This document shows, one piece after another, positions 51,232-63,996 of a stretch of 64,000 nucleotides of DNA. The notes beneath the pieces are model-generated. The model saw only the letters and a program-made list of their open reading frames with translations. It ran no database searches and was not told the origin of the DNA. The DNA is taken from NCBI GenBank assembly GCA_028683385.1, contig JAQUIJ010000015.1, forward strand, positions 1-64,000, in the 5' to 3' direction. The first letter of the stretch is position 1. Each line of letters opens with the position of its first letter. The position numbers and the translations under genes were made by a program. The stretch is from Prolixibacteraceae bacterium. Its GTDB lineage: Bacteria > Bacteroidota > Bacteroidia > Bacteroidales > Prolixibacteraceae.

Positions 51232-53037
51232 TTAAACCAGTTTTGCCTTTAAATTGGCAAGCTCCAATTTCATCTTTTCCAGATCAGCCATGAAATTGTT
51301 TTTTGAAGTAGAATCTTCCAACTGAGCTTTACATTTCTGAAATAAATCTTTGTAATACTCAACTCCCTTATTCAAATTATCCTGAAAGGTCACAAAGTGT
51401 TTCTTCTGTTTATCAGTAAATGGTTTAACCGTTTCTTCCAGTTTACCATTCAGATATTCAATATACATACCGAGTTCCTTCACGAATAAGTTAGGACGGT
51501 CGTTACGTTCCATAACATTAGTTCGGCCATAAATGTGGTCAACCATCTTTTTCAGCGAATAGGTGCTTGAAAAATACGCCAAATTAGGTCCCGGACAAAT
51601 ACTTACCGCTGTACCTTCAATTTTGGTATCCAAACCATATTCCATAAGCGACGAAGCAGTAAGTCCATTACAAAGACATGCTTTATCTGTAATTTTATTC
51701 AGTTCCTTTTCAAATTCCATCTCATTCAGGTTCTGTTCTTTCAATTCCTGAATTTTTTTGCGTTGAAATTCCTTTGAAGCGGTACAGGTGCCTTCTTCAG
51801 TGAAAACAGGAGTCAAAGCAAGGTATTTTTTCACACAAGGGAAACCGTATTTTCCTTCTTTATTTTGAGCCTCTTTTTTCAAATCCATGCCAGTTCCCCG
51901 AACATTATTGAAAATGACGCCTAAAGGTGAAACATTGCTCATGTAAAGATCTTCTTCCTTGGCTTTACACAATACTTCCAAGGTTTGTTCATCAACAGTA
52001 ACGGCTTCAGGAACCAATAAAAATGGAGTTCCCCATCCGATAGAATCCAATTGATAATAATCCATCAAAAACTGATGTTCGGAATTGGAACCAACCCCGC
52101 CCTGAGCCGTAATTTTTACCAAAAACGGTTTCTCCGGAACAGGTTTCCCCTTTTCAGCCAAGGCCTTGATATAAATATCGTGAACAGTTTCAATCAACTG
52201 GTCCTTATTTTCCTTGAATTCTTCCAGAACCGGCCCCATCAAGAATCCATCAGTAGCAAAAGCATGACCACCGCAATTCAAGCCAGATTCAACACGATAT
52301 TCAGAGACCCAGATTCCTTTTTTTGCCAGGAAACGGCCTTGAATCAAAGCTGAACGGTAATCACTCACTTTCAGGATTACCTTCTTCTTCAGTTCCATTT
52401 CAGCATTCGGATAAAAATCTTCGAATTCTTCCAAATAGCTGTATAAACGTGGATTCATTCCGGCAGAAAGTACCAACGAAGAACTTAAATCACTCAAAGC
52501 AAAACCGCGTAACGACGCCTGGGCATCGCTGTAAATAGAAGGTAGCTTTTCGCCGTCCTTAAAGTTATCGCGATCTAGTTTCGACATGATGTTGACATCA
52601 ATTTCGCCAGCCACCAGGTTTTCTTTCAACCATTCTGACAGCTTCTGCTTCATATCGGCAGTATTGATCATCTGATTGAATTTCTGCTTGATTTCAGACA
52701 TATCAGGCAACATCGCGATGTATTTTTCCAGTTCTTCTTCCTTTTGGGAAACTGAAGTCTTCAGATTCTCGAACTTCTGTTTGACGATTTCCTGAACGGT
52801 ATTCAGGTAAGCTGTGATCCGCTTTGCCCGATGATCTTCAGTTTTTGTAGGAATCGACTGAAAAGGCAAATTGAACTTTTTACAATAAAATTCCCTTAGT
52901 TTTTCCATGGTAATATCGTCAACCAGCGAAATAGCAGATGATATTCCATAGTGGGCTACCTTAATTGGTGTATCCATGGTATAGCACAAGCCCAAAACGG
53001 GAATGTGAAAAGTGTGTGGGTTATTTTGAAAACTCAT
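51232..53037 (-). CDS. Conserved protein of unknown function, possible FMN-type TIM barrel
   Basis: 601 residues from the ATG giving MSFQNNPHTFHIPVLG; the two codons before it begin with TTG. Residues about 75-130 form a coiled-coil-like stretch. The middle holds glycine-rich blocks (ESGLNCGGHAFATDG, KITAQGGVGSNSEHQFLMDY) that recall nitronate monooxygenase or glutamate synthase-type flavin barrels, but I would not assign it. Cysteines cluster in GTCTAS, ACLCNGL and ICPGPN. No signal peptide. It converges on the ATP-grasp gene and has no evident operon partner. Confidence 0.7.
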   Translation of the reverse strand: MSFQNNPHTFHIPVLGLCYTMDTPIKVAHYGISSAISLVDDITMEKLREFYCKKFNLPFQSIPTKTEDHRAKRITAYLNTVQEIVKQKFENLKTSVSQKEEELEKYIAMLPDMSEIKQKFNQMINTADMKQKLSEWLKENLVAGEIDVNIMSKLDRDNFKDGEKLPSIYSDAQASLRGFALSDLSSSLVLSAGMNPRLYSYLEEFEDFYPNAEMELKKKVILKVSDYRSALIQGRFLAKKGIWVSEYRVESGLNCGGHAFATDGFLMGPVLEEFKENKDQLIETVHDIYIKALAEKGKPVPEKPFLVKITAQGGVGSNSEHQFLMDYYQLDSIGWGTPFLLVPEAVTVDEQTLEVLCKAKEEDLYMSNVSPLGVIFNNVRGTGMDLKKEAQNKEGKYGFPCVKKYLALTPVFTEEGTCTASKEFQRKKIQELKEQNLNEMEFEKELNKITDKACLCNGLTASSLMEYGLDTKIEGTAVSICPGPNLAYFSSTYSLKKMVDHIYGRTNVMERNDRPNLFVKELGMYIEYLNGKLEETVKPFTDKQKKHFVTFQDNLNKGVEYYKDLFQKCKAQLEDSTSKNNFMADLEKMKLELANLKAKLV

Positions 53038-53288
53038 ATTCAATTTTCTAAATTATTAAAGGCGGTAAAAGTAGTTTATTCGAATTAAACTTTCATGTAC
53101 AAATACTGATTTCGATAAAAGAAAGGCGGAAAAAGATCATGTTTTTGTAACAGAATGTCAGATTACGGAGAATTCTACACTCTATTTTTAACAAATGCTG
53201 CAGATAGTCGAAAAAATCACTTCAATAATTTGAGTTTTTTGACAGTCGTGTCATTTCTAGAACCGAATTGGAAATAATTAAAGAAGAT

Positions 53289-53334: not shown

Positions 53335-54039
53335 TCAACCAAATTCGCTGATACGCTCCAATCGTGCAATATCGAGCAATTCAATACTTTTACAATGCAT
53401 TCCGATCAGGCCATCATCTTTGAATTCTTTCATCATCCGGATGACACTTTCGGTCGACATTCCCGTCAGATCGCCCAAATCGGCGCGTGAAAGCGGTAAC
53501 TCAAATGATTTACTTTTGAATATCCGGTTCGATAAACACAACAGAATATCGGCTAAACGGCCGTGCAGTTGCTTTTGAGTTAAAGAGAAGAAGCGGCCAT
53601 AAATTTGCGCGGTTTTTTCGTTGAGGAGATTAATGACATGAAAAGAAAAATCAGCATTCTGCTTTAAAAGCTGCCTGAAAATATTGATGTCAATCATTCT
53701 GATTCTCGAATCAGTATATGCCGTTACGGAGTAGGGCAATTTATCGTTTCCATCAAAAATTGCCGCCATGCCTAATAAGTTATTCCTGATGGCAAGCATG
53801 AGTATAAGGTTCTTATTCTTCTCTTCAAGGTAAACTTTAACTAAACCTTCTTCCATGTAATAGATATGCGAAGCAAATGCACCGCGTTTGCAAACGGTCT
53901 CACCTTTTTTAAAACTAATGCTGACAGAATGCTTATCAATTAGTATTTTTTCATCATCCGATAATAAGTCGTACCAGCTTTTTTCAGAATCAAATACTGA
54001 ACAATGGCTTATCCCTTTAGCTTCAATTGGTTCGTTCAT
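53335..54039 (-). CDS. Crp/Fnr-family transcriptional regulator
   Basis: 234 residues. A cyclic-nucleotide-binding beta barrel (about 25-130) is followed by the dimer helix and a Crp-type winged helix (LPLSRADLGDLTGMSTESVI, recognition helix about 195-206 with E197 and R201 in the places that read DNA in Crp and Fnr). Only one Cys lies before residue 40, so the Fnr-type oxygen-sensing iron-sulfur cluster is missing. It is divergent from the rhodanese gene, and a 22-bp palindrome in the shared promoter region is a candidate site for it. Likely activator of the respiratory genes to the right. Confidence 0.9.
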   Translation of the reverse strand: MNEPIEAKGISHCSVFDSEKSWYDLLSDDEKILIDKHSVSISFKKGETVCKRGAFASHIYYMEEGLVKVYLEEKNKNLILMLAIRNNLLGMAAIFDGNDKLPYSVTAYTDSRIRMIDINIFRQLLKQNADFSFHVINLLNEKTAQIYGRFFSLTQKQLHGRLADILLCLSNRIFKSKSFELPLSRADLGDLTGMSTESVIRMMKEFKDDGLIGMHCKSIELLDIARLERISEFG

Positions 54040-54069
54040 TTCTTATAAAAAATTTAATACCTCACAAAT

Positions 54070-54091
54070 AAAACTGCGTTGCATCAGTTTT
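54070..54091. promoter_or_regulatory. 22-bp palindrome AAAACTG-N8-CAGTTTT (regulator/rhodanese)
   Basis: Perfect 7-bp arms with spacer CGTTGCAT, in the divergent region between the Crp-family gene and the rhodanese gene, 31 bases before the regulator start. The spacing equals a Crp-type site. A copy with spacer CGTTAGAT lies in the Rieske/molybdoenzyme divergent region. Confidence 0.6.
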
Positions 54092-54153
54092 ATCTGCCCG
54101 AAATTAGTTTTTAAATCTATATAAATCAAATTCACTTTGTTTGAATTAACCGC

Positions 54154-54161
54154 TAACTTTG
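54154..54161 (+). promoter_or_regulatory. -7 box TAACTTTG of the rhodanese gene
   Basis: Perfect TAnnTTTG, 50 bases before the ATG. No TTTG sits at the right -33 spacing, which suits an activator-dependent promoter. Confidence 0.5.
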
Positions 54162-54211
54162 TGCAGAGATTACAAAAAAACATCAATTCATAAACCATAA
54201 AAACGATAAAC

Positions 54212-55063
54212 ATGCTAAAGAAATTATTTGCTTTTGCTCTGACATTAATGGCCATCCATTCATTTGCTCAGGGTCCTGTCATTTCGGCCAAAGATCTGGC
54301 AAACGAACTTAAAACAAATAAGAATCTGGTAATTCTCGATGTTAACCCAGCCGACGTATATGCCAAGCAGCACATTCAGGGAGCCATTAATTTGTTTTTC
54401 AAAGAATTGTACCAGCCCAATGCTGTTGAAGGCAAACTGAGACCTGCCAACGAACTGGCCGAAATCCTCGGAAAGAAAGGCATTTCGAATACCGCTAAAA
54501 TCGTGGTATATGAAAACGAATCGAACAAGCACAACAACCGCGTGTGGTGGATTCTGAAATCGCTCGGTGCGGCCGATGTTTGGACTTTGCATGTGGACGC
54601 CAAGGCGTTTGCCACTGCCCACCTGGCAATGAATTCGGTTCCGGTTACAGCAAAACCAGTAACCTTTACCGTTACTGACAGCCCATACAAATTGCTGACT
54701 ATGGAAGATGTGAAAAACCTGCCTAAAGGGACGCTTTTGCTCGACGGACGCGAGAAAGAAGAGTTTGAAGGTGTGGATGCGGCGAAGAAAAGCAAAGGCC
54801 ACATTCCCGGAGCCGTTTGGATGAATTACCGCGAAGTTCTCACGCCCACCGGTGCTTTCAAAACCAAAGACGAAATTATTGCTGCCGCTGCCAAATTTGG
54901 AGCAACACCCGAAAAACCAATCGTGGTGTATTGCAATTCAGGCGTAAAAGCCTCAACATTATTTGTTGGACTAAAAGAAATTGCCGGTTTCCAAAAAGTA
55001 CAATACTACGGCGGTTCATATGCCGACTGGGCTTCAAACCCGGAAAATCAGATCGTTCAATAG
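54212..55063 (+). CDS. Exported tandem-rhodanese thiosulfate sulfurtransferase
   Basis: 283 residues with signal peptide MLKKLFAFALTLMAIHSFAQ, so it works in the periplasm. Two rhodanese domains: the N-terminal one is inactive (VVYENESNKHN, Glu where Cys is expected) and the C-terminal one is active with C241 in the loop CNSGVKAS. It moves sulfane sulfur, for instance between thiosulfate or polysulfide and a thiol acceptor. Its place beside a Psr-like molybdoenzyme recalls the Wolinella Sud protein, a periplasmic rhodanese that feeds polysulfide to its reductase; that role here is inferred. Confidence 0.92.
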   Translation: MLKKLFAFALTLMAIHSFAQGPVISAKDLANELKTNKNLVILDVNPADVYAKQHIQGAINLFFKELYQPNAVEGKLRPANELAEILGKKGISNTAKIVVYENESNKHNNRVWWILKSLGAADVWTLHVDAKAFATAHLAMNSVPVTAKPVTFTVTDSPYKLLTMEDVKNLPKGTLLLDGREKEEFEGVDAAKKSKGHIPGAVWMNYREVLTPTGAFKTKDEIIAAAAKFGATPEKPIVVYCNSGVKASTLFVGLKEIAGFQKVQYYGGSYADWASNPENQIVQ

Positions 55064-55092
55064 TAAAGTGTGTTTTAAAGGTAAGTATCTAC

Positions 55093-55122
55093 AAATGCCG
55101 GGAGTTTTTCCGGCATTTTTTG
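55093..55122 (+). terminator. Intrinsic terminator of the rhodanese gene
   Basis: A perfect 9-bp stem AAATGCCGG/CCGGCATTT with an 8-nt loop and a run of six T, 30 bases past the stop. Confidence 0.9.
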
Positions 55123-55260
55123 TTTGGGTTAAGTTTGAGGAAACCAATTATGATCCGCTTTAGAATTAAATTGAGAAAAGAGACAATTTCGCAACCCAAA
55201 TAAACAACTATCACCGATTTACGTTAATGAAGTAATTCATTATCAGGATGATATATAGAT

Positions 55261-56097
55261 ATGAACTCACTCGACAGCAATATTCAGGAACACTATGACC
55301 GCGAGGGATTATACGAAACCATATTGGCAGCGCTGACTGCCGCCGGTAAAGATATTAATCAATTAAAACCGGAAGACCTTGCTCCAATTGATGAATTTCA
55401 TATCCGTGGGCGGGAAGCAACCCGAGAATTGGCTTCGCAGGTACAACTCAATTCAAACCAAAACGTTCTGGATGTCGGCAGCGGCGTAGGCGGCGCTTCA
55501 CGATTTCTGGCATTGGAATATGGCTGCCGGGTTACCGGGCTCGATTTAAGCGACGAGTATTGTCGGGTTGCCCGATCGTTGGCCAATCGGCTGGGACTTG
55601 ATTCTCTGGTGACCTATCAGCAGGGCAGCGCGCTCGACATGCCGTTTGAAGACAATTCTTTTGACATTGTCTGGACGCAACATGCAACCATTAACATTGC
55701 CGACAAACCCAAACTCTACTCCGAAATCGCACGGGTATTGCGCCCCAATGGTTACTTTGCCATGTACGACGTTTTAGCCGGACCGGTAAGTCCATTGTAC
55801 TACCCGGTTCCCTGGGCGCCAGATTCCTCAATTAGTTTCCTGACAACCCCGCATAATCTTCGTGAACTCCTTGAGGCTACAGGATTAAATATTCTGGGTT
55901 GGCGCGATACGTCGGAAATCGGTCGGTTGTGGTTCAAAGAAGTTGCGGCCAAAATGCAGCAACAAGGCGAAAGTCCAAAACTTGGTTTTCACATTCTTTT
56001 AGGACCCGATTTTAGGGTCATGGCTCAGAATCAGATACTCAATCTAAATGAAAACCGGATTGTATTGATTGAGTGCGTTGCGCAAAAACCAGCCTGA
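55261..56097 (+). CDS. Class I SAM-dependent methyltransferase
   Basis: 278 residues, cytosolic. SAM-binding motif I is VLDVGSGVGGASR (69-81) and the acidic motif II is GLDLSD. The layout (IDEFHIRGREATRELA before motif I) is like glycine/sarcosine/dimethylglycine-type small-molecule methyltransferases, but the substrate is not clear. It converges on the multihaem cytochrome gene with a gap of 21 bases. A link to the neighbouring respiratory genes is not evident. Confidence 0.85.
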   Translation: MNSLDSNIQEHYDREGLYETILAALTAAGKDINQLKPEDLAPIDEFHIRGREATRELASQVQLNSNQNVLDVGSGVGGASRFLALEYGCRVTGLDLSDEYCRVARSLANRLGLDSLVTYQQGSALDMPFEDNSFDIVWTQHATINIADKPKLYSEIARVLRPNGYFAMYDVLAGPVSPLYYPVPWAPDSSISFLTTPHNLRELLEATGLNILGWRDTSEIGRLWFKEVAAKMQQQGESPKLGFHILLGPDFRVMAQNQILNLNENRIVLIECVAQKPA

Positions 56098-56118
56098 TGT
56101 GGTTGCTGTGTAGATTTC

Positions 56119-58803
56119 CTAATTAACCAAAACACATTTTTTACTCCTCCCCGCCAGCGTTTTCTCCCAATTATCCAAGGCATTTTCCATAACGTTTGAT
56201 TTTTCATCGTGGCAGGTGAGGCAGGTGCCCACTTGAAGGATTCGCTTTTGCTCGGCAACATTAAACGGTCGCAACCAATCGCGAGTAGCAAAAGGTGGCT
56301 GCGCTTCTTTCAGGAATCCAGTCCATGCATCTTCAGGCAAATTATCGTTCGGATTGAGGGCAAAACGAGGCTCGAAAGTCCAGTTTCCGGCAACACTGTA
56401 ATTCAGCTCGCCGCGTCCAAAACCAATCGCCAGCGGATCGTTGTGACACGATTTACAACTGCGGCCTTCGCGTTGAGTCGTGTGTCCCGACGTTGGCGCG
56501 TACAACCGGTGAAAGCTTTTCCCTTTCCCTTCTTCAAACGACTCTTTGTCGATACTCATCACCATTCCGGGCATGGCAGTCACAACCTGATTGGTGGCCG
56601 AATTGACGCCCAATACTGGTGGTTCGGCACAACTATTTCCGGCAAATTCAACCCAGGTACTTTTGGTAGTTTTTCCGGTCAGCAAATCGAATCCGGCAGT
56701 TTCTTTCTCAAACGAATTGTGACAGCCAATGCATTGCGGCACCCATGCCGTGTGGCAGGCTTCGCAACTCAGTCGGCTGTGCCCTTTTCCCTTGGTGCAA
56801 ACCGATGCGGCAGGTTTCGATTCATGATCTTTACCTGTCAGTTTATCCTTCAGGAAAATCCGATTCAGCGAATCAACCCGGGTATTCATGATCGGATGCT
56901 GATTTTTGGCAGTCAGTACCACTTTGGTTTTTGGATCTGTCTTCCGCAACCAGGCAATCATCTGCGATTCTTTATCTGGAAGCGATGAAACAACTATTGA
57001 ATTTACCTTTCCGGTAGTATGGCAATCCACACACTGCACACTCACCGCATCTTCCTTGTGGGTATGATGCTTCCTGTCACCCATCAGGTCGTACGAGGTA
57101 TGGCAATCGATACAGGCCATTCCCTTTTGATGATGCACATCGGCCTGCACAAATTCGACAACCCGATTATCCGGCAAAACCTTAGTTTGTGCATTACTAT
57201 TTCCGGGCGCACCCTCTCCTCTTTCATTCCAGCCTTCGTAACTCAGCGAAATTCGTCCTGAACGGCTGTGACAACTCAAACAGCGGTCGTTCGAAACCTG
57301 AATATCGATGGACGGGTGGATTTCCGCAGTCGTTCCAGAAGTTTTGGTCATCATCTGTTTCATGCTTGCTGTGGCATCATCCGAATAGTGCAAATGACAG
57401 GCATTGCAGCCACCTCCCCGTTCGAGCCATTCAGCATTCCCCGTTTTGGTCTTTTCCATGCTCAGATGACAACCCGCACATAAGTTGCGCAAGTGAGTAT
57501 CGGCTGCCGAATGACCAAGATTTTTGACGTGAAAAGTATCGTTCAATGAAGCCGATTCTCCATATACAAATTTATCAACAGCAATAATTCCGCTTTGGGT
57601 GGCCATCAGCGATTTCTGCATTCTGTCCGTAATATCGGCATGGCAATTTTGGGTTCCGCAGGTTTGCCGAACATTCGAAAAATTACCCGGCACCAAGATC
57701 ATGTTCCGGTGAGCCATTGTTTTTCCAGTTGCATATGCATCGCCTTTATGGCAAGCCACACAGCCCATCACAGCCGGATTGTGTGACTCCGATAAACCTT
57801 TCATCGAAGCATGGCACAACAGGCAACTCTCCCTTCTCTGATTTTCAAGAATTACCTTTTGATTATTGGAACTGAATAAATTTACCGGGTCAAAAATCAG
57901 GAGTTGCTCTCCGGAAAATTTGTTTTCGCTCCATGATTTCCATTCCCAGTTTTCGCCCCTGAAAAGCAATGCAATCAGTGTCATCGTCAGGTAAAAGATA
58001 CCAGCCACAAGCAAAATGCGCTTAGTCAGCCTTCTGTAATTTTTCCGGAAACGTGGAAGAAAATAAATAACGATGAGCAAAAGGAAAATCAGGATTATAA
58101 TGTAGGCTGGATGACTAGTGAGATGAAGCATTTCCTGAATACCTACAAAAAACCACGGACCTTTAACTTGTGAACTGTCAGCCTGACCAAACGGTGCCCG
58201 AAACAGCACGCTGAGAACCAGGATAATCGAAAAAACAATAAGCCAGGATTTGCGCTTTGGCCAAATGGTTTTTACATGATCGTAAACGGCGATAAACAAC
58301 AAAATGGTTCCGGTAGCCACATGCTGGATGTAAACAACCTGACTATTTTCACCCACCCCGGTAAAAGCTGAACTCAAAAGTTTCCCGAAAAACGGTATCG
58401 ATTCGAGCAACGAAGCTAAAATTCGCTGCGCCTGAATCCCCGCAGCATCGCCTTTCAGGATAAAACCTGAAATCATTTCGTAACCCATAAAAACCAACGC
58501 TAAGGTTAAAATCAGCCAGGTACGACGATTTCGGACATTGGTTTCAGTCGATTTCGAAAAGTGATCGTAAACATGCAGAACCGAGAAAATAAAAAATAAC
58601 TGCGCGCTCCAATAATGCAGGTTACGAACCAGCGATCCGGCAGGATTGTATAAAAGTAGTTCAGAAACCGACTGATGGGCTTGTGTGAAATCGTAAGGAA
58701 TGGCCAGCAAAATTCCACTTACGGCGCAGATCAGCAGCGATGAACTGGCGATCCACCCGGCAGTATCAAATTGTAGGATTTTTTTTATTTTTTGTTGGTT
58801 CAT
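56119..58803 (-). CDS. Cytochrome b fused to a multihaem cytochrome c
   Basis: 894 residues, no cleaved signal. Residues 1-285 are a cytochrome b: haem b histidines H63/H77 (spacing 14) and H161/H176 (spacing 15, as in b6-type proteins), and GPWFFVGIQEML in place of the PEWY quinol-site motif. The C-terminal 570 residues face the periplasm and hold eleven CXXCH sites (327, 348, 442, 466, 508, 564, 591, 680, 691, 783, 861) and one CX4CH (382). It should pass electrons from menaquinol through b haems to a haem wire. The Rieske gene lies upstream, now separated from it by a transposase gene. Confidence 0.92.
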   Translation of the reverse strand: MNQQKIKKILQFDTAGWIASSSLLICAVSGILLAIPYDFTQAHQSVSELLLYNPAGSLVRNLHYWSAQLFFIFSVLHVYDHFSKSTETNVRNRRTWLILTLALVFMGYEMISGFILKGDAAGIQAQRILASLLESIPFFGKLLSSAFTGVGENSQVVYIQHVATGTILLFIAVYDHVKTIWPKRKSWLIVFSIILVLSVLFRAPFGQADSSQVKGPWFFVGIQEMLHLTSHPAYIIILIFLLLIVIYFLPRFRKNYRRLTKRILLVAGIFYLTMTLIALLFRGENWEWKSWSENKFSGEQLLIFDPVNLFSSNNQKVILENQRRESCLLCHASMKGLSESHNPAVMGCVACHKGDAYATGKTMAHRNMILVPGNFSNVRQTCGTQNCHADITDRMQKSLMATQSGIIAVDKFVYGESASLNDTFHVKNLGHSAADTHLRNLCAGCHLSMEKTKTGNAEWLERGGGCNACHLHYSDDATASMKQMMTKTSGTTAEIHPSIDIQVSNDRCLSCHSRSGRISLSYEGWNERGEGAPGNSNAQTKVLPDNRVVEFVQADVHHQKGMACIDCHTSYDLMGDRKHHTHKEDAVSVQCVDCHTTGKVNSIVVSSLPDKESQMIAWLRKTDPKTKVVLTAKNQHPIMNTRVDSLNRIFLKDKLTGKDHESKPAASVCTKGKGHSRLSCEACHTAWVPQCIGCHNSFEKETAGFDLLTGKTTKSTWVEFAGNSCAEPPVLGVNSATNQVVTAMPGMVMSIDKESFEEGKGKSFHRLYAPTSGHTTQREGRSCKSCHNDPLAIGFGRGELNYSVAGNWTFEPRFALNPNDNLPEDAWTGFLKEAQPPFATRDWLRPFNVAEQKRILQVGTCLTCHDEKSNVMENALDNWEKTLAGRSKKCVLVN

Positions 58804-58861
58804 TTTTATTTTTTAATATTCACAGGGTTCCATTTCATTCCACTCTGTGCTTTTACAAAAC

Positions 58862-59527
58862 GTCCTTTCAGGACTTAAAAGGGACCACTCACAGACCTAA
58901 AACAACATGAAAATCAGTAAAACGGTGTCCTATGATAGTAACGAACATTAATCCCAAACATAACGTTCGTCGTATTCAATTCCATTTTCTTTCAAAAATA
59001 GTCTGAATTCATCCTTGCAATCAACTTCCTTATGATGTTGCGGTTGATTCCTAACGTATTTTTTAACTGCTTCAATGTTAGACGAACTTACCGAAAAGAT
59101 GCCATATCCATCCTGCCAATAAAAATCAGGCACGCCTTTATTCTTTAGCCATTTAGATGAAGTTGTTTTTATTTTTGAAACTAAATCGGCCATTGTGATT
59201 GTTCTTGGAAGTGTACAAAGAATATGAATATGATCGGGATTTGCATAGATTTCATAAGTATAGGAACCCAAATTCGACAAAACACCAATTGCATATGAAT
59301 GAAGCTCTTTACGAATTTCATCTGTTATAAACTCCTGACCATACTTCGTTGTAAATACAATATGGACATTTACTTTTGCTAACGACTGTGGCATAATATT
59401 GAAATTTATGGTTTAACGAAATTTCCAAAGAGTCTCGCTACACATATTCAGAACATCCCTTCATTACCTCAAAAGGGGCAAAGCCCCGCCCCGTAACAGC
59501 ATAGGACGTAGTTTACGAAGTCCTATG
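58862..59527. mobile_element. IS200-like insertion with flanking palindromes
   Basis: The single transposase gene is flanked by hairpins: GTCCT-TTC-AGGAC (58862-58874) on one side, GGGGC-AAA-GCCCC (59475-59487) and CATAGGAC-N12-GTCCTATG (59500-59527) on the other. The 10-mer GTCCTATGAT occurs on both sides (58927 and 59520). Exact element ends are not certain; IS200-like elements make no target duplication. Confidence 0.5.
58948..59394 (-). CDS. tnpA: IS200/IS605-type Y1 (HUH) transposase
   Basis: 148 residues, full length for a Y1 transposase. The HUH motif is HIH in NPDHIHIL and the catalytic tyrosine lies in VKKYVRNQ. The WQDGYGIFSVS block and the C-terminal YDERYVWD are typical of this group, which moves single-stranded DNA or maintains palindromic REP-like repeats. 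No tnpB partner is present. It lies between the Rieske and cytochrome b genes in the same direction as both. Confidence 0.93.
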   Translation of the reverse strand: MPQSLAKVNVHIVFTTKYGQEFITDEIRKELHSYAIGVLSNLGSYTYEIYANPDHIHILCTLPRTITMADLVSKIKTTSSKWLKNKGVPDFYWQDGYGIFSVSSSNIEAVKKYVRNQPQHHKEVDCKDEFRLFLKENGIEYDERYVWD

Positions 59528-59957
59528 ATTTCGATAATTTAGACACCACTGGATTCAACCTCACCACCCATTGACCATTCTTTTCATCATACCGGCATTC
59601 AATTTCCTGAAGCGGTTTAATGGCCGGGCCTTTCAATGGATGTCCGGTTTTAGCGTCGAATTGGGAACCATGGCAATTGCATTGCAAAGTTGTTGCTGTT
59701 CCCAAGCCTATGCGGCATCCGGCATGGGTGCATTTGGTCAAGAAAGCCCTCACCGATTGATCGCTCCTGAACAGGTAATATTTTTCGTAATAGCTCAATC
59801 CCATCGGTAAATCCAGACCATGCCGGTACTCCATTCGATTCTCATGTTCAATTTGAAAGCCTGAAAGCCGATACCAAATCCAGCCAAACAGACCTAAAAT
59901 CAAGCCTGACGTAATTCGAAAAAATGTATTTCGCGATATCGGTTTTTGTATTCCCAT
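59523..59957 (-). CDS. Rieske [2Fe-2S] protein
   Basis: 144 residues from MGIQKPISRNTFFR; the frame has one more ATG four codons upstream. An N-terminal membrane anchor (about 12-30) precedes the Rieske fold with ligands C76 and H78 in CTHAGC and C93 and H96 in CNCHGS; C81 and C95 would form the disulfide. It fits the high-potential Rieske subunit of a quinol oxidase complex, partnering the cytochrome b fusion downstream. The stop codon lies inside the CATAGGAC/GTCCTATG palindrome at the insertion edge, so the native C-terminus may have been changed. Confidence 0.93.
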   Translation of the reverse strand: MGIQKPISRNTFFRITSGLILGLFGWIWYRLSGFQIEHENRMEYRHGLDLPMGLSYYEKYYLFRSDQSVRAFLTKCTHAGCRIGLGTATTLQCNCHGSQFDAKTGHPLKGPAIKPLQEIECRYDEKNGQWVVRLNPVVSKLSKS

Positions 59958-59978
59958 TATAAATAACATTCAGCGATT

Positions 59979-60007
59979 CAAATCTACAACTTTTATAACT
60001 GAACCAA
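59979..60007 (-). promoter_or_regulatory. Candidate promoter of the Rieske gene
   Basis: Minus-strand -7 box TAGATTTG (perfect TAnnTTTG) with a weak -33 TTGG 17 bases upstream. The AAAACTG palindrome centre lies about 66 bp upstream of the expected start site, a usual place for a Crp-type class I activator. Confidence 0.45.
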
Positions 60008-60026
60008 GCTTATCCATTTTATTTTC

Positions 60027-60050
60027 AAAAACTGCGTTAGATCAGTTTTT
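60027..60050. promoter_or_regulatory. Palindrome AAAACTG-N8-CAGTTTT (Rieske/molybdoenzyme)
   Basis: Perfect arms extended to 8 bp (AAAAACTG/CAGTTTTT), spacer CGTTAGAT. It shares AAAACTGCGTT and ATCAGTTTT with the copy beside the Crp-family gene. Candidate operator for that regulator. Confidence 0.6.
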
Positions 60051-60163
60051 TACATGACTGACCTCATAAAATTATATGAGACAATTAAGCACCATACATC
60101 TACCTGATAATCTGACAATTAACAAAACACCTGTAACTATCTATATATTTAGAGTAAAACTCA

Positions 60164-60194
60164 TTTGCGAAACCCAAGCAATCAAGTACTTTTG
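60164..60194 (+). promoter_or_regulatory. Promoter of the molybdoenzyme operon
   Basis: TTTG, a 19-base spacer, and TACTTTTG (perfect TAnnTTTG): a textbook Bacteroidota promoter 70 bases before the ATG. Confidence 0.65.
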
Positions 60195-60214
60195 TTCAAA
60201 TCATAGTCACAACG

Positions 60215-60234
60215 ATTTTGATTTAGATCAAAAT
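60215..60234. promoter_or_regulatory. Fnr-type palindrome ATTTTGAT-TTAG-ATCAAAAT
   Basis: Contains the exact Fnr consensus TTGAT-N4-ATCAA. It lies downstream of the promoter boxes, about +15 to +35 of the expected start, where binding would repress, unless another promoter is used. Confidence 0.55.
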
Positions 60235-60263
60235 AATTCCACAAAATTCTAAATTTCAGCAGA

Positions 60264-62504
60264 ATGCATAGTCGGAGGAATTTTATAAAAATCAGTTCAT
60301 TAGGGATCGGCGCAACTGCCATCGCCGGTGGCACCATCAAATGGGCTGTGGGTGCTTCCTCAAAAAAACTTTCAGGGGGATTAAAATCGGCTCCAATATT
60401 GAAACAGGTTTCTACCTATTGTGAAGTTTGTTTCTGGAAATGTGCCGGATGGGCACATGTTACAACCGAAGGCCAAATTCAGAAAATTACAGGAAATGCT
60501 GACGATCCGCAATGTAACGGTCGTCTTTGCCCGCGCGGAACAGGTGGTGTCGGTATGTTTTCAGACCCAGATCGTTTAAAAACGCCACTGATTCGTGTGA
60601 CCAAAAATGGCGAACAAACCTATCGTGAAGCAAGTTGGGACGAAGCGCTTGATTTCATCGCTAAAAAGATGAAGGAAATTGCTGAGAAAGATGGCCCGGA
60701 AAGCATGGCGCTATTCAACCATGGAAGTTCTGGCAAATATTTTACACAATTGCTCAATGCTTATGGCTCAAATAACGTAACAGCCCCGTCGTTTGCTCAA
60801 TGCCGTGGTCCGCGTGATACGGGTTTCGAACTCACTTTCGGTGAATCGGTAAGTAGTCCGGAAGTAACCGACATCCGCGATACACGGTGTCTGGTACTGA
60901 TTGGATCGCACATCGGTGAGAACATGCACAACGGTCAGGTTCAGGAAATGTCGGAAGCCATCGACAAAGGAGCAACCATCATAACTGTCGATCCACGCTT
61001 ATCAACAGCCGCCAGCAAATCGAAATACTGGTTACCTATTAAACCATCAACCGATCTGGCTCTCTTGCTATCGTGGATTCACGTACTCATTTACGACGAA
61101 ATTTACAATAAAGAATATGTAGCCAAATATGCTGAAGGCTTCAACGAACTGAAAGAACATGTTCGAAGTTTCACTCCGGAATGGGCCTACGGAATTACAA
61201 CAATCAAACCTGAAGTTATCCGCAATACTGCTCGCGAGATGGCCAATGCAGCGCCAGCTACAATCATACATCCCGGACGCCACACCAGTTGGTACGGAGA
61301 CGATGTTCAGCGTTCGCGTGCCATTGCTATCCTGAACGCCTTGTTGGGATCATGGGGAAACCGAGGTGGAATTTTCTTCAAAGAAGGCATTAAAGTTCCT
61401 GATTTTCCGCACCCGGCATATCCAAAACCTAGCTGGTCTTGGCAGGACACACTTAATGGAAGATATCCGTTAGCCAAAGAATCAATTACCAATACAATTA
61501 TAGAAGCATCTATACCGGCAGAAGGAAATACTCATCCGATAAAAGGCTGGATTGTTTCAGGGACAAACCTCATCGTTTCGATACCTCTGAAAGAGCAATT
61601 GATGAAAGCCATGCAATCGCTCGAATTATTGGTGGTGGTTGATACCATGCCCATGGAAATTACCGGATATGCCGATGTGGTTTTGCCTGAATGTACTTAC
61701 CTTGAACGGTATGACGATCTGCGAGCCACACCACACCGAGAACCAACTCTGGTATTGCGTATGCCGGCAGTTGAACCGATGTACGAAACAAAACCGGCAT
61801 GGTGGATTGCCAAACAAATCGGAGAACGCCTTGGACTTGGCGCTTATTTTAACTTTACCGATTTCAAAGAAGTAATTGACTGGCAATTGAAACAACTGGG
61901 TCTGTCGCTCGAAGAAATGGAACGTATCGGGGTTAAAAAATATGCACGAAAAACTCCAGTTTATATTGAACCTGGTTCTGATCACACTTTCAAAACCGCT
62001 TCAGGAAAAATACAACTGTTTTCAAAGGAATTGGAAGAAGCTGGATTCGATCCGATGCCAAAATTTACGCCTCATGCCCAACCCGAAGAAGGTTTTTACC
62101 GTCTGATTTACGGACGTGCCCCGATGCACACGTTCAGTCGTACGGCCAATAACCGAAATCTGGTGGCTCTTATGCCTGAAAATGCAGTCTGGGTCAATCC
62201 TCAGGTTGCTGAATTGTGGGGCCTGAAAAAAGACCAGTATGTATGGTTGAAAAATCAGGATGGCGTGGTTTCCAATTTTTCAGTTAAAGTGAGGGTTACA
62301 GAACGTATTCGATGGGATTCGGTTTACATCGTACATGGCTTTGGACACCACCATAAACCACTGACATATGCCTTTGGACGTGGTGTAAACGATACTGAAT
62401 TAATAACCGATGTGGCGATTGACCCAATCATGGGCGGAACCGGAATGCGTGGGAATTTCGTCACATTTTTGAAAGATGAACCTAAAAAGGAGGCTAAATC
62501 ATGA
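60264..62504 (+). CDS. PsrA/PhsA-like molybdopterin oxidoreductase, catalytic subunit
   Basis: 746 residues with a Tat leader (SRRNFIK). The [4Fe-4S] ligands are C53, C56 and C60 in YCEVCFWKC and C89 in GRLCPRG. The likely Mo ligand is C180 in AQCRGPRDTG, as in the polysulfide, thiosulfate, tetrathionate and arsenate reductase branch. The C-terminal molydopterin-binding domain includes YGRAPMHTFSRTANN. It is the periplasmic catalytic subunit of a three-part enzyme. The nearby rhodanese favours polysulfide or thiosulfate, but arsenate or tetrathionate cannot be excluded. Confidence 0.9.
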   Translation: MHSRRNFIKISSLGIGATAIAGGTIKWAVGASSKKLSGGLKSAPILKQVSTYCEVCFWKCAGWAHVTTEGQIQKITGNADDPQCNGRLCPRGTGGVGMFSDPDRLKTPLIRVTKNGEQTYREASWDEALDFIAKKMKEIAEKDGPESMALFNHGSSGKYFTQLLNAYGSNNVTAPSFAQCRGPRDTGFELTFGESVSSPEVTDIRDTRCLVLIGSHIGENMHNGQVQEMSEAIDKGATIITVDPRLSTAASKSKYWLPIKPSTDLALLLSWIHVLIYDEIYNKEYVAKYAEGFNELKEHVRSFTPEWAYGITTIKPEVIRNTAREMANAAPATIIHPGRHTSWYGDDVQRSRAIAILNALLGSWGNRGGIFFKEGIKVPDFPHPAYPKPSWSWQDTLNGRYPLAKESITNTIIEASIPAEGNTHPIKGWIVSGTNLIVSIPLKEQLMKAMQSLELLVVVDTMPMEITGYADVVLPECTYLERYDDLRATPHREPTLVLRMPAVEPMYETKPAWWIAKQIGERLGLGAYFNFTDFKEVIDWQLKQLGLSLEEMERIGVKKYARKTPVYIEPGSDHTFKTASGKIQLFSKELEEAGFDPMPKFTPHAQPEEGFYRLIYGRAPMHTFSRTANNRNLVALMPENAVWVNPQVAELWGLKKDQYVWLKNQDGVVSNFSVKVRVTERIRWDSVYIVHGFGHHHKPLTYAFGRGVNDTELITDVAIDPIMGGTGMRGNFVTFLKDEPKKEAKS
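62487..62493 (+). promoter_or_regulatory. Strong ribosome-binding site AAGGAGG
   Basis: A full Shine-Dalgarno sequence seven bases before the ferredoxin-subunit ATG, inside the end of the upstream gene. Such sites are rare in this phylum and suggest high translation of the coupled subunit. Confidence 0.6.
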
Positions 62505-63034
62505 GATATGCAATGGCTATTGATACCCGGAAATGTGTAGGCTGCAGCGACTGCGTAGTAGCTTGCCAAACCGAAAACAATGTACCGGTAGGTTTCTGCC
62601 GCGATTGGGTGGTTGAAGTTGTTGATGGAACTTATCCGAATGTAAGCATAGAACTTCGCACCGAACGTTGCAATCACTGTGACAATTCTCCATGTGTTCG
62701 ATGCTGCCCAACGGGAGCAAGTCATTTCGAAGATGGCGGAATTGTTTTGGTGGATCACGACAAGTGCATCGGCTGCGGAGCCTGCATCCAAGCCTGCCCG
62801 TACGATGCCCGCTACTCGCATCCGGATGGATACGTTGACAAATGCACATTCTGCATTCACCGCGTTCGCGAAGGAAAAAATCCGGCATGTGTGAGTGTTT
62901 GCCCAACCAGTTGCATGAATTTTGGCGACCTTGACGATCCAAATTCGAAAATTGTAAACGTGCTGAAGAACCGTAAATTCAAGTCACTTGCTCCTGAAGC
63001 AGGTACCAAACCACAGATATTTTATCTCATTTAA
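62501..63034 (+). CDS. PsrB/NrfC-like four-cluster ferredoxin subunit
   Basis: 177 residues. Sixteen cysteines form four [4Fe-4S] motifs: CVGCSDCVVAC, CNHCDNSPCVRCC, CIGCGACIQAC and CTFC with a later CVSVC. It moves electrons between the membrane subunit and the Mo enzyme. Its ATG overlaps the stop of the catalytic gene by four bases (ATGA), so translation is coupled. No signal peptide, as expected for a partner exported together with the Tat subunit. Confidence 0.95.
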   Translation: MRYAMAIDTRKCVGCSDCVVACQTENNVPVGFCRDWVVEVVDGTYPNVSIELRTERCNHCDNSPCVRCCPTGASHFEDGGIVLVDHDKCIGCGACIQACPYDARYSHPDGYVDKCTFCIHRVREGKNPACVSVCPTSCMNFGDLDDPNSKIVNVLKNRKFKSLAPEAGTKPQIFYLI

Positions 63035-63054
63035 ACCCGCGAAAACTATATAAG

Positions 63055-63996
63055 ATGAAAGAAGAATTATTCGCAAGTGGACGCAACATTCCAAATATAG
63101 ATCCTTATCTGAACATATGGCACTGGCAAATTCCAAGTTACCTGTTTCTGGGTGGTTTAGCTGCAGGAATTCTCTTTTTCGCCAGTTTTTTTACCATAAT
63201 GGGCAAAGAACACAAAATGGAAGCTACAGTTAAGAAAGCGCCATTGCTCGTTCCTTTTATATTGATGCTCGGACTTTTCTTTCTGTTTCTCGATTTGAAA
63301 CACAAACTTTACTTCTGGCAACTTTACACGACCATTCGTTTGGAATCGCCAATGGGCTGGGGATCATGGGTTTTAATGATCATCACACCAATCTCTATTC
63401 TTTGGTCGGCCAGTTACGTTAAAGAGGCATTTCCAAATTGGGACTGGAAGTACAAGATTTTGAATACAATAGAAGCCTGGTTAATTAAAAACAGGAAAAT
63501 CATCGCCTGGCCAATGGCTATTTATGCTATCATTCTTGGTATTTATACTGGAATACTTTTGTCAGCTTTCAATGCCCGTCCCTTATGGAATACATCGATT
63601 CTTGGGCCACTGTTTTTGGTCTCCGGAATGTCAACCGCAGCCGCGGTGATCATGCTAATGAGTAAAGATCATAAAGAGCGAAAGATTATGGGAAGAATTG
63701 ACATTCTGCTGATTATCGTAGAACTGTTCTTTATTATCCATTTATTCATGGGCTTTCTGGCCGGATCAGAAGTACAGATTAATGCTGCAAACCTATTCCT
63801 GGGAGGAAAATTCACAGCTCCATTCTTTGCATTCGTTGTAATTCTTGGCCTGATATTCCCTGCTGTGCTTGAAGTTTTTGAGCTGAAAGGTTATAAAGTA
63901 CCAATCGTTGTACCTGCCGTGCTAATCCTTATAGGAGGATTGATCTTCAGGTTCCTTATGGTTGAAGCCGGACAGATTACTAGATACCTTTATTGA
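63055..63996 (+). CDS. PsrC/NrfD-like membrane quinone subunit
   Basis: 313 residues, with about eight membrane helices (YLFLGGLAAGILFFASFF, LLVPFILMLGLFFLFLDL, MAIYAIILGIYTGILLSAF and others). The NrfD family holds the quinone site and anchors the Mo/Fe-S subunits without haem. It starts 20 bases after the ferredoxin gene, giving the classic ABC order of polysulfide and thiosulfate reductases. The stop falls four bases before the window end, so further genes of the operon may lie outside. Confidence 0.93.
   Translation: MKEELFASGRNIPNIDPYLNIWHWQIPSYLFLGGLAAGILFFASFFTIMGKEHKMEATVKKAPLLVPFILMLGLFFLFLDLKHKLYFWQLYTTIRLESPMGWGSWVLMIITPISILWSASYVKEAFPNWDWKYKILNTIEAWLIKNRKIIAWPMAIYAIILGIYTGILLSAFNARPLWNTSILGPLFLVSGMSTAAAVIMLMSKDHKERKIMGRIDILLIIVELFFIIHLFMGFLAGSEVQINAANLFLGGKFTAPFFAFVVILGLIFPAVLEVFELKGYKVPIVVPAVLILIGGLIFRFLMVEAGQITRYLY

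Follow-up and report, generated by a model that had tools for sequence, protein, structure and literature searches.

We analysed a 64,000-nucleotide window of Prolixibacteraceae DNA (the first 64 kb of the 132,729-base contig JAQUIJ010000015.1, in a 5.9-Mb genome), in which an operon for a Psr-type molybdoenzyme faces genes for a Rieske protein and a cytochrome b fused to a multihaem ExtM-type domain (Table 1). A preliminary description of this locus had listed a Rieske gene, a cytochrome b fusion, a molybdoenzyme/ferredoxin/NrfD operon, a rhodanese and a Crp gene. All are present, each at its given position. Not in that description are a methyltransferase gene (55261-56097), a transposase gene (58948-59394) and the continuation of the operon past the window, where the order psrA-psrB-psrC-yeeE-yeeE-rhoM1-rhoM2 is followed by a glutamine synthetase gene (locus L002). 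A relative assembled as one contig (G012) has the same gene order, minus the methyltransferase and transposase, so the locus is not an assembly artefact.

Table 1. Features of the psr/ext locus, with window positions unless a locus is named
Feature	Position	Strand	Evidence
Crp/Fnr-family regulator, probably of the psr/ext locus	53335..54039	-	PF13545 (HTH_Crp_2) 60 bits; PF00027 (cNMP_binding) 55 bits
22-bp palindrome, site 1, AAAACTGCGTTGCATCAGTTTT, crp/rhodanese divergent promoter	54070..54091	.	20/22 bases as in site 2
Tandem-domain rhodanese RhodT, probably exported	54212..55063	+	PF00581 in two stretches, 107 bits
S-adenosylmethionine (SAM) methyltransferase, probably a passenger	55261..56097	+	PF08241 88 bits
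Cytochrome b fused to 12-haem ExtM-type c domain, 894 amino acids	56119..58803	-	NCBIfam ExtP/ExtQ/ExtM
IS200-type Y1 transposase, between Rieske and cytochrome b	58948..59394	-	PF01797 85.8 bits
Rieske [2Fe-2S] protein, ExtO counterpart; frame open to 59969	59523..59954	-	PF00355 46.8 bits
22-bp palindrome, site 2, AAAACTGCGTTAGATCAGTTTT, Rieske/psrA divergent promoter	60028..60049	.	Near-identity with site 1
FNR-box-like TTGATTTAGATCAA, 5' of psrA; sole exact box in the window	60218..60231	.	Motif scan
PsrA/PhsA-type molybdopterin catalytic subunit, Tat-like N-terminus	60264..62504	+	PhsA 483 bits; Thermus Psr (2vpw) 681 bits
PsrB-type 4Fe-4S ferredoxin subunit	62501..63034	+	PF13247 84.7 bits; ArrB/TtrB/NrfC 168-170 bits, all under cut-off
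PsrC/NrfD-type membrane quinone subunit	63055..63996	+	PF03916 149.9 bits
RhoM1 and RhoM2, membrane rhodanese-like proteins, GC-tailed	L002:13244-14489, just 3' of the window end

The psr half and its sulfur-supply genes

By score, the catalytic subunit belongs to the PsrA/PhsA clade. Its best match among solved structures is Psr of Thermus thermophilus, with the next structure at 194 bits. Among NCBIfam models, PhsA leads with 483 bits, below the equivalog cut-off of 694 (NF012032), and is followed by formate dehydrogenase (262), ArrA (137) and TtrA (48). The preliminary description had made its interpretation depend on this placement, and the scores indicate a Psr/Phs-type enzyme rather than Arr or Ttr; Qrc, dimethyl sulfoxide reductase and formate dehydrogenase identities were ruled out on the same basis, as were those two. 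The subunit composition is that of PsrABC, with A, a ferredoxin-type B and an NrfD-type C encoded in one operon. PsrA/PhsA enzymes characterised so far are reductases, and sulfite is a product of thiosulfate reductases.

Two YeeE halves lie 3' of psrC (PF04143, 80 and 47 bits); the first scores 45 bits against TsuA, for which the full-length cut-off is 400, and the second does not match that model. Beyond them, RhoM1 has a rhodanese fold (PF00581, 48 bits) and, judged by eye, an N-terminal hydrophobic segment. Such proteins stand beside psrABC across the phylum, and at the loci scanned 60 of RhoM1 type scored 36 bits or more. Of the 58 with a complete end, 57 terminate in GC (55) or GC plus one residue (2), although the model was built on full-length proteins including their tails and may favour tailed matches. 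The tails read GGC in 36, EGC in 18 and DGC, GGCE and GGCN in one each; the one protein that does not fit comes from a short frame in L150. In 40/57 the terminal cysteine is the only Cys of the protein, and the catalytic-cysteine column is occupied by Ser, Ala or Gly in 55/57 (Cys in 2). RhoM1 thus lacks the catalytic loop cysteine that marks an active rhodanese; RhoM2 was judged on this point by eye only. RhoM2-type matches of at least 100 bits end in a GC-type tail in 25 of 28 cases, the others being half of a frame that is split, plus two members of other rhodanese families. These counts omit loci L054-L060 and L117-L127 as repeats or overlaps, one 27-bit RhoM1-type match without a tail (L151) and, for the RhoM2 type, everything that scored below 100 bits, namely RhodT, lipoprotein rhodaneses and a tail-less 62-bit neighbour in L115. 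The predicted structure of RhoM1 is uninformative (mean predicted local distance difference test (pLDDT) score 49.5, from 7 closely related rows).

The tandem rhodanese RhodT, probably exported as judged by eye from its N-terminus, has a single active-site-like Cys loop, CNSGVKA, in its second PF00581 domain; by a crude hydropathy scan, neither RhodT nor the Rieske protein contains a membrane segment. RhodT is not supported as the Sud counterpart. The closest Sud match found is instead the membrane protein RhoM1, beyond the window, whose nearest solved structure is, weakly, Wolinella Sud (1qxn, E 0.012).

A second yeeE-yeeE-rhoM cluster is present elsewhere in the same genome (L115, contig 24 of G000). 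There, one RhoM ends in GGCN and a neighbouring one has no such tail; a nearby rhodanese is 28% identical to a lipoprotein of relatives (see below), and the stretch read contains no psrABC. In relative G022, a second sulfur cluster (L079:6687-11941) encodes a cytochrome of the octahaem tetrathionate reductase family (TIGR04315, 574 bits), a thiosulfate-reductase-like cytochrome b, a YeeE protein and a YeeE-rhodanese fusion ending in GGC.

The Ext half and its linkage to psr

The cytochrome b fusion matches, in one 894-residue chain, three proteins of the Geobacter ext cluster, with NCBIfam scores that all lie below the cut-offs of the models: ExtP (59.5 bits, residues 16-172), ExtQ (34.9 bits, residues 184-287) and ExtM (265.8 bits, residues 318-871). 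The ExtM match is nearly full length, spanning model positions 13-582 of 599. Twelve haem sites had been counted in this protein, and 12 is correct, as 11 CXXCH motifs and one CX4CH. All 20 rows having the b part conserve its haem-b histidine pairs, H63/H77 and H161/H176. Cytochrome b has GPWF at 215-218 where a PEWY-type Qo motif would stand, and the window's Rieske protein has its two ligand boxes, CTHAGC and CNCHG. With Rieske, cytochrome b, an ExtQ part and a 12-haem ExtM together, the composition of an Ext-type quinol complex is complete.

Across 15 aligned ExtM domains, the 12 haem motifs, 8 non-motif His, 3 Met and 2 non-haem Cys are invariant. Since only 11 invariant His and Met serve 12 haems, at least one haem has no invariant ligand of either kind. 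This count is a hint of a Cys- or Lys-ligated or open haem, and a pointer to catalysis, nothing beyond. Family and structure matches give no support for calling the 12-haem domain an MccA, an octahaem tetrathionate reductase (OTR) or an NrfA: the fusion does not match TIGR04315, and the local NrfA match is weak, covering one haem pair (E 1.5e-05). The predicted structure of the fusion is uninformative (mean pLDDT 30, from 8 closely related rows).

The preliminary description predicted that the two halves would co-occur in relatives, and the neighbourhood search that it proposed bears this out. Among 61 genomes (own, genus, family and order), cytb-ExtM had matches in 24 at E <= 0.001 and in 20 at the threshold used, E <= 1e-60; the four weak matches (G023, G043, G050, G060) were left out. 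PsrA (E <= 1e-80) is present in 39/61, including all 20 with cytb-ExtM, and the halves are adjacent in 18 of these 20. In G002, only the start of the Rieske gene lies beside psrA before the contig ends, and G014 is likewise cut by a contig end. A sample of 395 genomes from the phylum (ExtM E <= 1e-25, PsrA E <= 1e-150) gave ExtM in 13 and PsrA in 43, with all 13 ExtM genomes carrying PsrA and 11 of them, our own genome included, showing adjacency. The hypergeometric P value for the overlap, 4.9e-14, is inflated because the genomes are related and kinship was not corrected for. Relatives of cytb-ExtM were also found in metagenome-assembled genomes of Prolixibacteraceae/Bacteroidetes (7 loci).

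At the 12 other loci of the phylum sample, ExtM is fused to cytochrome b in five, each time with a Rieske gene directly 5', and stands alone in seven (632-663 residues). A BLAST look, which a divergent copy could escape, found no recognisable Rieske or cytochrome b gene near any of the seven. PsrABC is thus accompanied more steadily by the ExtM domain, and the bc part is optional.

ExtM also tracks the type of PsrA. When 65 PsrA sequences are placed on a tree, the ExtM-adjacent label changes 7 times, compared with a mean of 21 after shuffling (0/500 as low); L062 was scored as lacking ExtM, though its contig ends inside the Rieske gene. The five same-genus genomes on the tree without ExtM (G005, G008, G011, G015, G018) carry a PsrA of another clade, and G002 holds both kinds. 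Identity matrices of PsrA and ExtM from 27 loci are correlated (Mantel r 0.87, 0/2000 permutations; Spearman 0.61), and the correlation is weaker with about one locus per genus (14 loci, Spearman 0.35). In keeping with a joint module, Rieske-cytb-ExtM of G041 lies 3' of RhoM2 on the same strand as the psr operon. In G006 the psr operon opposite a same-genus ext half (74-78%) is a more distant one (PsrA 65%).

Palindromes and neighbouring genes

Both divergent promoters had been said to share a palindrome. The two sites are nearly identical, with 20 of 22 bases alike. A consensus made from the two window sites themselves matched nothing at <=3 mismatches when the window was shuffled eight times, and no third copy at that level in the genome. 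A reversed control pattern likewise had two genome matches at <=3 mismatches, so what carries weight is that the two sites are nearly identical and that there are no others, rather than their number. Site 2 is kept between Rieske and psrA, with 0-3 mismatches, in 11/18 relatives having the region (L061, L062, L063, L065, L066, L067, L068, L071, L072, L074, L077) and is absent from that region in L064, L069, L070, L073, L075, L076 and L078. Near crp, site 1 is exact in G012, has 4-5 mismatches (about chance level) in G022, G016 and G002, and was not found within 5 mismatches in G003 or G001. Orthologues of crp (81-97%) lie near rhodT or cytb-ExtM in several same-genus genomes, and the Crp protein is the obvious candidate to bind the palindrome. 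FNR regulation through the box at 60218 was rejected, as L061 alone of the loci scanned has the box in the same place.

Some relatives encode further Ext-like components. Close to rhodT, a porin gene and a gene for a rhodanese lipoprotein (recognised by eye) occur in G003, G016, G022 and the order-level genome G056; the sole NCBIfam match of the G003 and G022 porins is ExtI, at 43 bits of the 150 required. The lipoprotein has no NCBIfam ExtH match at E <= 0.01 and so can be called an ExtH counterpart by composition only. Neither gene is present at the window locus, and the protein nearest to the lipoprotein in the window's genome, 28% identical, is encoded on another contig.

The methyltransferase and the transposase were rejected as parts of the module. 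Among the relatives' loci mapped, each occupies its spot in just one other genome: the methyltransferase in G014 (91%) and the transposase in G004 (89%), which appears to be the same genome as L060. The transposase gene is bordered by short inverted repeats. The region 3' of cytb-ExtM contains varied cargo, some of it defence-like by eye, in L063, L064, L066, L067, L068, L072 and L098, and repeats of the last ~35-50 codons of cytb-ExtM occur there in G010, G019 and G017. This spot, where the window's methyltransferase also sits, is perhaps an integration hot spot. Several genomes of the same genus encode, close to crp or psrA, a conserved counterpart (83-96%) of a 603-residue protein (51232-53043) with no convincing Pfam match.

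Proposed function and comparison with known systems

Given the Psr type of the enzyme, the sulfur transporters and the rhodaneses, sulfur-compound respiration is the best reading, and we lean, with some reserve, towards one co-inherited module of two quinone-linked complexes. PsrABC, its PsrA exported, would move electrons between menaquinone and periplasmic sulfane sulfur or thiosulfate. The two half-size YeeE/YedE channels would supply it by passing sulfur species across the membrane, and the membrane-anchored RhoM1 and RhoM2 may carry sulfur on the terminal cysteine of a flexible GG(G)C tail, as SoxY and DsrC suggest by analogy. The facing unit, Rieske plus one ExtP-ExtQ-ExtM chain, would form a second menaquinone-reactive complex, with ExtM as a second periplasmic redox partner that probably handles the oxyanion product (sulfite from thiosulfate). 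Electrons could reach ExtM from the quinol pool via Rieske/cytochrome b where these are present, and otherwise from PsrBC, and the dedicated Crp-type regulator would govern both halves via the two palindrome copies. We propose sulfite for ExtM because it resembles selenite, for which Geobacter ext has a phenotype, and because thiosulfate reductases yield it. The preliminary interpretation, a single sulfur-respiration module, is thus partly supported: co-occurrence, PsrA type and the palindrome speak for it, and its multihaem part is now identified as ExtM-type, with Rieske and cytochrome b optional.

A bolder version, which we hold only tentatively and consider rather unlikely, makes RhoM a new class of periplasmic sulfur carrier and ExtM a 12-haem chalcogenite (sulfite/selenite) reductase, the two acting together. 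RhoM would pass sulfane sulfur between the YeeE channels and PsrA, and ExtM, through an active haem with neither His nor Met as its ligand, would remove the sulfite made by the Psr/Phs enzyme. Were this so, thiosulfate would be fully reduced to sulfide by two quinol-linked complexes, and the Geobacter ext cluster would at root be a sulfur oxyanion system.

Several observations weigh against a joint sulfur-respiring module. The Ext matches are all far under the NCBIfam cut-offs, with ExtM (NF040943) at 266 bits versus 800, a level reached by 0/395 phylum genomes. MccA/SirA sulfite reductase is defined by an atypical long-spaced haem motif. None of the 12 motifs of ExtM is long-spaced in this way, and ExtM has no family match to MccA among NCBIfam models or solved structures. 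Joint regulation, moreover, would not prove joint work. Geobacter, which encodes ExtM as a 12-haem cytochrome, ExtO as a Rieske protein, ExtP as a cytochrome b and ExtQ as a membrane protein (PMC5877670), has an ext cluster without psr genes as described in the available portions of PMC5877670 and PMC6148476. The phenotypes given there concern selenite and tellurite, the reduction of which is impaired by extI deletion, and, in part, metals: deletion of extHIJKL brings growth with Fe(III) citrate down to 66% of the wild-type level, pointing to metal reduction (PMC6148476). On disruption of the cytochrome gene and selenite, the available text of PMC5877670 holds a preliminary remark only.

An oxidative module is an unlikely but serious contender. 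PsrABC, running in reverse, would oxidise sulfide or polysulfide to give menaquinol, and the Rieske/cytochrome b/12-haem complex would pass the electrons onward, to an oxidase, a denitrification enzyme or an outer-membrane or extracellular acceptor. Bc-type complexes normally move electrons upward in potential. Haem-copper oxidase families are encoded in 21/26 genomes (6 matches in the window's genome, 5 over the cut-off) and NiR/SiR-domain matches occur in 15/26 (14 over the cut-off); the oxidases of the genus would allow an oxidative role, a point against the reductive module. The ExtI-like porin of relatives would also fit, as do the action of Geobacter ext clusters in extracellular electron transfer (PMC6148476) and the YeeE-like SoxT that brings in sulfur for oxidation in Hyphomicrobium (PMC11582611). 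However, no Sox or Dsr was found among the genes identified at the locus, a result without a genome-wide search, and none of the seven stand-alone ExtM loci has a recognisable cytochrome b or Rieske gene nearby. That the PsrA/PhsA enzymes characterised so far are reductases is a further argument against an oxidative module.

That the two halves are independent systems, with a common neighbourhood and regulator and no exchange of electrons, we regard as improbable. They are different quinone enzymes, mostly on opposite strands. PsrABC does not need ExtM, which at the threshold used is missing from 30/43 phylum genomes that carry PsrA, and in G176 and G417 the two genes lie on separate contigs, a separation that contig ends do not explain because neither gene is near one. 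The last two facts count against the joint module as well. Yet they leave the co-occurrence (13/13 and 20/20), the clustering on the tree, the split, within a single genus, between a PsrA clade that has ExtM and another that lacks it, and the shared palindrome to be accounted for.

Least probable is a selenite, tellurite or arsenate module, an ext cluster of the Bacteroidota for metalloid oxyanions in which PsrA reduces another oxyanion: 'selenite/tellurite reduction operon' models match each of the three parts of the fusion, the extI phenotype in Geobacter agrees (PMC5877670, PMC6148476), and the authors on Melioribacter hold that Psr/Phs specificity is not reliably predictable from sequence and consider arsenate (PMC3534657), a caution that applies to the sulfur reading too, but ArrA (137 bits) and TtrA (48) score far below PhsA (483), and two sulfur-transport halves with three rhodanese-fold proteins suggest sulfur, even if YedE and rhodanese relatives also serve in selenium metabolism.

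Compared with known systems, the psr half has the three subunits of PsrABC/PhsABC, such as Thermus Psr, in the same order, and differs in the two YeeE halves and cysteine-tailed rhodanese-like proteins 3' of them and in the Ext-type complex opposite. The combination of genes had been called unfamiliar. For the psr neighbourhood there is a precedent: psrABC, double sulfur-transport domains and a rhodanese, in that order, are described for Ca. Thermonerobacter, with a MerR gene in front as in our loci L128 and L130 (PMC6338057), and psrABC relatives are reported in Melioribacter and Ignavibacterium (PMC6338057, PMC3534657). The portions of these accounts available mention neither an ExtM/cytochrome b gene nor a cysteine tail, and in the open-licence literature we found no mention of an ExtM-Psr link or of a cysteine-tailed rhodanese.

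The facing half resembles the Geobacter cluster extHIJKLMNOPQS (PMC5877670, PMC6148476) in its 12-haem ExtM, cytochrome b ExtP, ExtQ and Rieske ExtO, and some relatives add an ExtI-like porin, with a rhodanese lipoprotein in the place of ExtH. Unlike in Geobacter, ExtP, ExtQ and ExtM are one polypeptide, psrABC stands opposite, and no separate ExtN, ExtKL or ExtS was seen among the window genes scanned. ExtM and ExtN homologues are also reported in cable bacteria (PMC11976967). The Nap cluster of Caldithrix likewise places a Rieske protein and a cytochrome b, proposed to feed periplasmic multihaem cytochromes, in a molybdoenzyme locus, as separate genes beside a nitrate reductase (PMC5317091, available text). 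That ExtM is tied to a PsrA/PhsA-type operon across the Bacteroidota offers a concrete, testable sulfur hypothesis for the Ext complex.

RhoM1 shares the rhodanese fold of Wolinella Sud and differs from it in being membrane-anchored by its N-terminal hydrophobic segment, in having lost the loop cysteine and in having a terminal one. Sud serves Psr in Wolinella. Flexible tails with a conserved cysteine also stand beside sulfur enzymes in the GGCGG arm of SoxY and the terminal-cysteine arm of DsrC, to which RhoM is likened by its tail, here borne on a rhodanese fold. If RhoM does carry sulfur, it would add to SoxY and DsrC another way of trafficking sulfur, and would serve to mark this kind of sulfur respiration.

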